NCBI GenBank assembly: GCA_040901445.1
Contig: JBBDYQ010000002.1
Location: 62,001 to 126,000, forward strand
Source of the DNA: Thermoleophilaceae bacterium
Lineage (GTDB): Bacteria > Actinomycetota > Thermoleophilia > Solirubrobacterales > Thermoleophilaceae
Direction of reading: 5' to 3'
DNA: 64,000 nucleotides
Positions 21,664 to 23,857 of the stretch are shown one piece after another. Below the pieces are notes generated by a model. The model was not told the origin of the DNA, did not search any database, and worked only from the letters and a program-made list of their open reading frames with translations. The number at the start of each line of letters is the position of its first letter. The first letter of the stretch is position 1. A program made the translations under genes and the position numbers.

Positions 21664-23304
21664 ATGCCCGCTCCACGCGTCCTGGTCCTCGGCGGCGGCT
21701 ACGTGGCCATGTACCTCGCCCGCGGGGCCAAGAAGGCCATCAACGCGGGCGAGCTCGAGTGTACGGTCGTCAACCGCTCGAACTTCCAGGCCTTCCACGG
21801 CTTCGCGGGCGAGATGGTCTCCGGCCGCCTCTCCCCCAGCCACATCTGCAGCCCGGCGCGGCGGCTGTTCCCCCCCGCGCAGGTGCACGTGGCGGAGATC
21901 CAGAAGGTGGACCTCAAGAACAAGGTGGTCACCACCGCGCGCTCGCTGGACGGCGCCCGCACCGTGCTCTCCTACGACCACCTGGTGGTGTGCATGGGCA
22001 CCCAGGACCGCACCGAGGCCTATCCCGGCCTGGCCGAGCATGCCTTCCGCCTCAAGGCCTACGAGGACTGCCTGCGGCTGCGCAACCACATCATCCAGAT
22101 GTTCGAGCTGGCGGAGATCGAGAAGGACCCGGAGGAGCGCCGCCGGCTGCTCACGTTCTTCATCGCCGGCGGCGGCTATGCGGGCACCGAGCTGGCCGGC
22201 GAGCTGGCCGACCTCGCCCGGCTCCTCACCAACAAGGAGTACAGGGGCATCCGCCGCGAGGAGTGCCGCCACGTGCTCGTGCACCCCGGCCCCACGATCC
22301 TCCCCGAGCTCTACGGCAAGGACGGCAGCGGCCCGGAGGCGCATCCCAAGCTGGTGGAGGCCGGCATGCGGCGGATGCGCAAGCTGGGGGTGGAGGTGCT
22401 CACGGAGACGAAGGTGGCCGCAGCCACGCCCAACGAGGTGCAGCTCTCCAACGGCGAGCGCATCCCCACCCGCACGATCATCAGCGCAGTGGGCATGCAG
22501 CCGCAGCCGATCGTGGAGAAGCTCGACCTGCCCAAGGACGAGGGCGGGCGCATCGTGTGTGACGAGCACTGCCGGGTGGAGGGCTACGAGGACATCTGGG
22601 CGGGCGGCGACTGCGCAGCCATCCCGCTGCCCAAGAACCCCGGCGTCACGTGCCCGTCGGTGGCCATCTACGCGATGAAGCAGGGGCACAAGATCGGCAA
22701 GAACCTGTCGCGAGTGGCCACGGGGAAGGAGCCCAAGCCGTTCACCTACCCGGGCATCGGGCAGGGCGCCTCGGTGGGCCGGCGCTACGCGGTGGCGGAG
22801 CTGAAGGGGATCGAGATCAAGGGCTTCCTCGCCTGGGTCATCTGGCGCACCCTGCTCACCTACTACTTCCCGAGCTGGGACCGGCGGCTGCGGATCATGA
22901 CCGACTGGTGCATCTGGCCGATCGTGGGGCGAGACATCGTGGAGCTGCCCACCGGCCGCCGCGACGACTACGACATCCGCCACAACGTCTTCCAGCCGGG
23001 CGAGATCGTCGCCCAGGAGGAGCGCACGGGCAAGTACATCCACGTGATCGTGGAGGGCGAGGTGGAGCTGCTGGACACCAAGGACGGCATGGAGCAGGTG
23101 CTCGACACCCTGGGCCCGGGCGCGCACTTCGGCACGCGCTGGCTGGAGAGCTTCGAGATGGAGGTGGCGCGCGCGAAGACGGTGGTGCGCACGGTCGCGC
23201 TGCGCCGCGACCAGGCGCCTCAGCTGCAGGAGGTGCTGCGCTCCACGCGGCTGATCACCGCCGAGTCGGGACACTTCCCGGCGATCGTCGAACCGCCTCG
23301 ATGA
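21664..23304 (+). CDS. NDH-2-like FAD/NAD(P) oxidoreductase with C-terminal cNMP-like domain
   Basis: A 546-residue flavoprotein. The FAD dinucleotide fold is at the N-terminus (VLVLGGGYVAMYLARG), a second NAD-binding fold at about residue 165 (FFIAGGGYAGTELAGELADL) and the third FAD motif at about 315 (IWAGGDCAAIP), as in type II NADH dehydrogenases; the helix FLAWVIWRTLLTYYF fits the membrane-anchoring region. Residues about 437-535 add a Crp-like cNMP-binding barrel (HNVFQPGEIVAQEERTGKYIHVIVEGEVELLD; GPGAHFGTRWLES) with a degenerate ligand cassette. Leaderless start: TAGGCT ends 7 nt before ATG 21664. Its 3' end overlaps the convergent selenoprotein-like gene by 50 bp. Confidence 0.85.
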   Translation: MPAPRVLVLGGGYVAMYLARGAKKAINAGELECTVVNRSNFQAFHGFAGEMVSGRLSPSHICSPARRLFPPAQVHVAEIQKVDLKNKVVTTARSLDGARTVLSYDHLVVCMGTQDRTEAYPGLAEHAFRLKAYEDCLRLRNHIIQMFELAEIEKDPEERRRLLTFFIAGGGYAGTELAGELADLARLLTNKEYRGIRREECRHVLVHPGPTILPELYGKDGSGPEAHPKLVEAGMRRMRKLGVEVLTETKVAAATPNEVQLSNGERIPTRTIISAVGMQPQPIVEKLDLPKDEGGRIVCDEHCRVEGYEDIWAGGDCAAIPLPKNPGVTCPSVAIYAMKQGHKIGKNLSRVATGKEPKPFTYPGIGQGASVGRRYAVAELKGIEIKGFLAWVIWRTLLTYYFPSWDRRLRIMTDWCIWPIVGRDIVELPTGRRDDYDIRHNVFQPGEIVAQEERTGKYIHVIVEGEVELLDTKDGMEQVLDTLGPGAHFGTRWLESFEMEVARAKTVVRTVALRRDQAPQLQEVLRSTRLITAESGHFPAIVEPPR

Positions 23305-23818
23305 CCGCCTCCGTCGGCGGGTTGTCGCCCGAGTCCTTGCTGTAGTGGGCGAAGGCCGCGCGGCCGTCGGCACCCACCACGAACGTGCCGGGCAGCTGCG
23401 CCGTGTCCCCCACGGGGATGCCCGGCAGCGAGCCCTTGCGCACGGCCTTCGCGTACTTCGGCATGAGCTGCGGGCCGAGGAACTGCACGAGGGAGCCGCG
23501 CTCCAGGCCCACGGACTTGTAGGCGCGGCGGTCGGGGTCGCCGAGGCAGTCGAGCTCGACCTCGCGCTTGCGGCAGAAGTTGCGCGCCGGCTCGGCGCGG
23601 TACTGGAACACGGCCACGACGTCGCCGCCCGCGGCGCGGATCTGCTCCCGGGCCTCGTCCAACTGGACGAGGTGCTCGCGGCAGAACGGTCAGCCGAAGT
23701 GGCGCATGAAGGCGATGACCAGCGGTCCCCGCTCCCAGCGCGCCCTCAGCTCCACCGGGCCGTCCACGGAGTCCACGACGAGCTCCGGGAAGGCGTCACC
23801 GACGGTCAGCTTGGCCAT
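23255..23818 (-). CDS. Putative selenoprotein: peroxiredoxin-like (AhpC-TSA_2/PRXL2 type) with in-frame TGA
   Basis: A 187-residue thioredoxin-fold protein if the TGA at 23692-23690 is read as selenocysteine (residue 43). The context is RHFG-U-PFCREHL, where Cys homologues have the C-x-x-C redox motif, giving UxxC (Sec43, Cys46). The reading frame is typical of the family on both sides of the TGA: GDAFPELVVDSVDGPVEL before it, and VVAVFQYRAEPARNF ... LPGTFVVGADGRAAFAHYSKDSGDNPPTEAV after it. A perfect 8-bp hairpin with an AGUU loop follows 17 nt after the TGA, as a bacterial SECIS should. Leaderless start: TAGGGT ends 6 nt before ATG 23818. Without recoding it would be a 42-residue stub, and ordinary annotation would start at 23662. 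Confidence 0.8.
23653..23672 (-). promoter_or_regulatory. SECIS-like hairpin for selenocysteine insertion
   Basis: On the coding (minus) strand, 17 nt after the TGA, CCTCGTCC and GGACGAGG form a perfect 8-bp stem closed by the tetraloop AGTT. The loop G is the second loop base and about 26 nt from the TGA. This agrees with the published bacterial SECIS description (apical G near the loop start, 16-37 nt from the UGA). Confidence 0.7.
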
Positions 23819-23824
23819 GGCCAG

Positions 23825-23857
23825 ACCCTATACGGGCCGGCGCACGGGGTGTATGGT
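23825..23857. promoter_or_regulatory. Divergent -10 elements, selenoprotein-like gene and zincin gene
   Basis: In the 50-bp gap, TAGGGT (23830-23825, minus) is 6 nt before the ATG of the peroxiredoxin-like gene, and TATGGT (23852-23857, plus) is 11 nt before the ATG of the exported zincin. The two promoters are back to back. Confidence 0.5.

Follow-up and report, generated by a model that had tools for sequence, protein, structure and literature searches.

A predicted SelL-related selenoprotein with a UxxC motif and a covarying SECIS hairpin in a Thermoleophilaceae bacterium

SelB takes part in the insertion of selenocysteine (Sec) in bacteria, and the animal protein SelL carries the motif UxxU. 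It is well established that bacteria insert Sec at a stem-loop directly 3' of the UGA, and in bacterial selenoprotein genes this stem-loop lies within the coding region, immediately downstream, with a small apical loop that contains a G (PMC1088965). As far as the available parts of PMC9312934 and PMC13188914 go, both list an AhpC/TSA_2 selenoprotein (PF13911 / cd02970) with the motif UxxS. The same parts describe a Prx-like thiol:disulfide oxidoreductase selenoprotein of PF00578 with UxxC/UxxU (PMC9312934) and give the motif of Sec peroxiredoxins as TxxU / PxxxTxxU (PMC13188914).

The window, by which we mean the whole 64,000-nucleotide stretch of Thermoleophilaceae DNA that was analysed, contains a gene that we compare with these systems. 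Its features are as follows.

23255..23818, minus strand: full predicted selenoprotein frame, with ATG at 23818, 187 residues and the terminal TGA at 23257-23255
23690..23692, minus strand: UGA predicted to be read as Sec, residue 43, in the motif RHFG-U-PF-C
23681..23683, minus strand: TGC codon of the putative resolving Cys, residue 46, of the UxxC motif
23653..23672, minus strand: predicted bacterial SECIS hairpin, with an 8-bp stem CCUCGUCC/GGACGAGG and an AGUU loop
23255..23662, minus strand: artefactual truncated ORF of 135 aa with a TTG start, a possible output of standard gene calling

Read from 23818 to 23255 on the minus strand, the frame has only one internal stop, the TGA at 23692-23690, and its translation is MAKLTVGDAFPEL...RHFG-U-PFCREHLVQL.... 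A first-pass annotation made from the sequence alone had named this TGA as the sole break in the frame, and the coordinates it gave are exact. It had also foreseen a truncated protein of 135 residues from 23662, which does exist as a mechanical ORF; the TTG taken as its start is a Leu codon that spans the loop of the hairpin. Cys46 is invariant in an alignment of eight sequences.

The neighbouring gene on the plus strand (21664-23304) is convergent and overlaps the 3' end of the selenoprotein gene by 50 bp; its product resembles type-II NADH dehydrogenases and carries a cyclic-nucleotide-binding domain at its C-terminus. The sequence TATAGGGT lies at 23825-23832 on the minus strand, a few bases upstream of the ATG. 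With so little space for a leader, the selenoprotein mRNA may be leaderless. We found no promoter or terminator consensus near the gene.

The hairpin, CCUCGUCC-AGUU-GGACGAGG, begins 17 nt past the UGA, with 25 nt from the UGA to the loop and 26 nt to the loop G, so the perfect stem, the loop and the spacings were all described correctly at first pass. It is a stem-loop of the kind set out in PMC1088965. The 56-nt stretch that contains it folds with a minimum free energy of -26.1 kcal/mol and a z of -2.2 against shuffled sequences, a value that, given the high G+C content of the DNA, is modest on its own. Of the 1086 TGAs in the window, 5% precede an 8-bp hairpin, loosely defined, with a G in its loop; a single one, the TGA at 23692-23690, precedes a hairpin whose AGT loop lies at exactly 25 nt. 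With such a z, and with loose hairpins after so many TGAs, the argument from the single sequence is weak alone; it is chiefly the comparison of related genes that speaks strongly against chance. In Rfam the sole match, to a miRNA, scored far below the cut-off.

The source genome (3.54 Mb in 25 contigs, rated 100% complete) has the machinery for Sec. The first-pass annotation had proposed a search for the sel genes and would have counted a lack of selB, selC or selD as refuting its reading; all of them were found: SelA (474 bits) directly adjoins SelB (307 bits), SelD (380 bits) is on the window's own contig, and there is a tRNA-Sec (68.7 bits) that ARAGORN reports as tRNA-SeC with anticodon tca. 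A TGA also interrupts the genome's gene for the formate dehydrogenase alpha subunit, FdhA, in frame at the classic Sec site, NQARI-U-HSSTV (locus L056, G000 contig C10:4164-4910). As in the SelL-related gene, this UGA is followed by a perfect stem with a loop that contains AGU (here AGUCU), but the distance from the UGA to the loop is 18 nt, compared with 25 nt in the genome's three SelL-related genes. The FdhA gene, with its TGA and its own hairpin, is thus evidence for Sec decoding that is independent of the peroxiredoxin-like gene. The other two SelL-related genes are paralogues, 57% and 32% identical to the gene in the window, and both have TGA at the same codon.

Among the 232 genomes of the order, 42 have a homologue at E 1e-10. 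The Sec column could be aligned at 32 loci, where the codon is TGA in 21 and TGC in 11, so that the gene's own TGA stands opposite TGC in 11 homologues and TGA in 20 others. The first-pass placement of the TGA at the first Cys of the homologues' motif, giving UxxC, therefore agrees with where their Cys codons align. In a phylum-wide sample a homologue is present in 67 of 396 genomes; at the 19 loci read, the codon is TGA in 15 and one for Cys (TGC/TGT) in four. Together these make 36 TGA genes, 21 in the order and 15 elsewhere in the phylum, although counts over related genomes reflect common ancestry and are not independent events. SelA occurs in 16/19 of the order's TGA-form genomes as against 4/11 Cys-form genomes (p 0.015) and 76/213 of its remaining genomes (p ~1e-4). 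The three TGA-form genomes that gave no SelA match are all drafts, with completeness of 68-87%.

A protein tree requires at least four changes between Sec and Cys and has two subfamilies with both forms in each. A peptide-pattern scan of the whole collection found only two relatives, because the pattern demands Cys and not TGA; one of them, 46% identical and with the Cys pattern, is from a Thermoleophilaceae MAG. In the two-stop frames of the phylum sample that we read in search of a SelL-like UxxU, the second position is never UGA. One homologue (L029, G211 contig C315:7094-7637) lies in two frames with the break just past the redox motif, which suggests a frameshift or an assembly error. Another genome has a tandem pair of homologues with one TGA each (G256 contig C130:56113-57203).

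The hairpin is conserved together with the TGA. The UGA is followed at exactly 25 nt by AGU(U/C) in 21/21 TGA homologues of the order and by AGUU at 15/15 TGA loci elsewhere in the phylum. Over the 21-gene set, 97.6% of the cells of the 8-bp stem are paired and six of the eight pairs have changes on both sides, with a covariation score of 0.489 compared with 0.185 for shuffled alignments (0/500 reach it) and no more than 0.13 for slid controls. In the phylum set, 13/15 have at least six of the eight pairs, five or more of them consecutive beside the loop; the other two have imperfect stems, with four and six of eight pairs and only three consecutive beside the loop. The hairpin is not conserved among the Cys forms, of which 14/15 lack the AGUU loop. 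One Cys homologue from a genome with SelA (L024, G070) retains a CAGTTG loop on a broken stem; possibly this loop is a relic of a Sec ancestor, from a change of Sec to Cys.

The SECIS loop dictates TTG as the Leu codon that spans it, and 20/21 TGA genes have TTG there; TTG makes up 1.6% of the Leu codons in six genes of the window. A hairpin restricted to TGA forms, a covarying stem and a rare codon kept in place argue for selection on the RNA and not on the protein alone. When the source genome was scanned with a SECIS covariance model, the three paralogues came back at 55-76 bits. The model's weaker matches, at about 20 bits and less, had no credible selenoprotein frames where we inspected them and were set aside as chance.

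We believe that the gene very probably encodes a functional SelL-related (PRXL2/AhpC-TSA_2-like) thioredoxin-fold selenoprotein, with Sec supplied by SelA/SelB/SelD and the SECIS and with chemistry at Sec43 and Cys46. The machinery, the two paralogues that share the TGA and the covarying hairpin all favour the selenoprotein reading proposed at first pass. A recent nonsense mutation at the active-site codon would make the gene a pseudogene, and this is what the output of a standard gene caller would suggest, with the frame stopped at codon 43 and a remnant of 135 residues; however, the same-codon TGA recurs in genes across the phylum and twice more in this genome, and a covarying hairpin lies downstream of it, which makes the pseudogene very improbable. 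A sequencing or assembly error is less probable still. One base change would be enough to turn the TGC of the Cys homologues into TGA, but such an error would need to strike the same codon in dozens of genomes, each time with an AGUU hairpin that the Cys forms do not keep. The first-pass remark that error or decay would not predict the hairpin was well founded: with loop and compensatory stem conserved in TGA forms only, the SECIS appears to be under selection, which neither explains. Organism-wide reassignment of TGA to Trp or Cys would account for one frame that runs through a TGA, but TGA terminates both the selenoprotein gene itself and the convergent NADH dehydrogenase gene, the read-through accompanies a local hairpin, and the genome has SelA, SelB, SelD and tRNA-Sec. 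We consider reassignment about as improbable as the pseudogene.

What the Sec enzyme does is more evenly balanced. It might be a thiol-disulfide or other reductase and not a peroxidase, and we give the two equal weight; this contests only the peroxidase half of the reading and leaves the selenoprotein claim untouched. UxxC is a thioredoxin-type motif and differs from TxxU, which the available part of PMC13188914 assigns to Sec peroxiredoxins; the residues around Sec43 are RHFGUPFC, and PxxxTxxU is absent there. The only sequence relatives in the PDB, 9us9 (E 3e-7) and 9usa (1.6e-4), are both named prostamide/prostaglandin F synthase. On the other side, the Pfam models AhpC-TSA_2 (PF13911; 53.1 bits, gathering cut-off 27), AhpC-TSA and Redoxin all match the protein, without deciding the matter.

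For the selenoprotein, we have high confidence in Sec insertion at residue 43, by analogy with established Sec decoding. SelA, using the selenophosphate made by SelD, would form Sec-tRNA with anticodon UCA; SelB would bind the AGUU-loop hairpin downstream of the UGA and bring the Sec-tRNA there, and the ribosome would put in Sec43 instead of stopping. From the UxxC motif and what is known of thioredoxin-fold enzymes, we infer a catalytic cycle in which the selenolate of Sec43 would attack a peroxide, a disulfide or, less probably, some other oxidised substrate. Cys46 would then resolve Sec43 as a selenenylsulfide, and a thiol reductant would reopen the bond.

Genes like the one at 23255..23818 on the minus strand are easily mis-annotated as truncated or as pseudogenes, and the 36 TGA members provide a clean covarying SECIS model, alongside one genome that has two UGA-to-loop spacings. 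We know of no established bacterial function for the PRXL2/SelL fold, and the paired Sec and Cys homologues offer a direct test of what selenium contributes in it.

The 187-residue protein exceeds the curated cut-off of the NCBIfam model NF040769, 'SelL-related redox protein' (133.9 bits against 120, residues 20-175), so it belongs to a kind already known; animal SelL has UxxU where this protein has UxxC. Besides the SelL-related family curated by NCBI, AhpC/TSA_2 selenoproteins are in the available parts of PMC9312934 and PMC13188914. The UxxC form of the SelL-related/AhpC-TSA_2 family was not found in those parts of the two prokaryotic selenoproteome reviews, and the UxxC group is possibly a new sub-lineage. 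Somewhat short of an even chance, in our view, is the larger proposal of an undescribed phylum-wide UxxC SelL-related lineage (probably Actinomycetota) with a rigid 25-nt SECIS, 7 nt off that of FdhA and apparently served by the same SelB. Within what those reviews list, the AhpC/TSA selenoprotein (PF13911 / cd02970) is of the same Pfam family and likewise has Sec first in the redox motif, but it is UxxS where the protein described here is UxxC. The Prx-like thiol:disulfide oxidoreductase of PMC9312934, as described there in the available part, shares the thioredoxin fold and UxxC with our protein; it belongs to PF00578, whereas the best matches here are PF13911 and NF040769.
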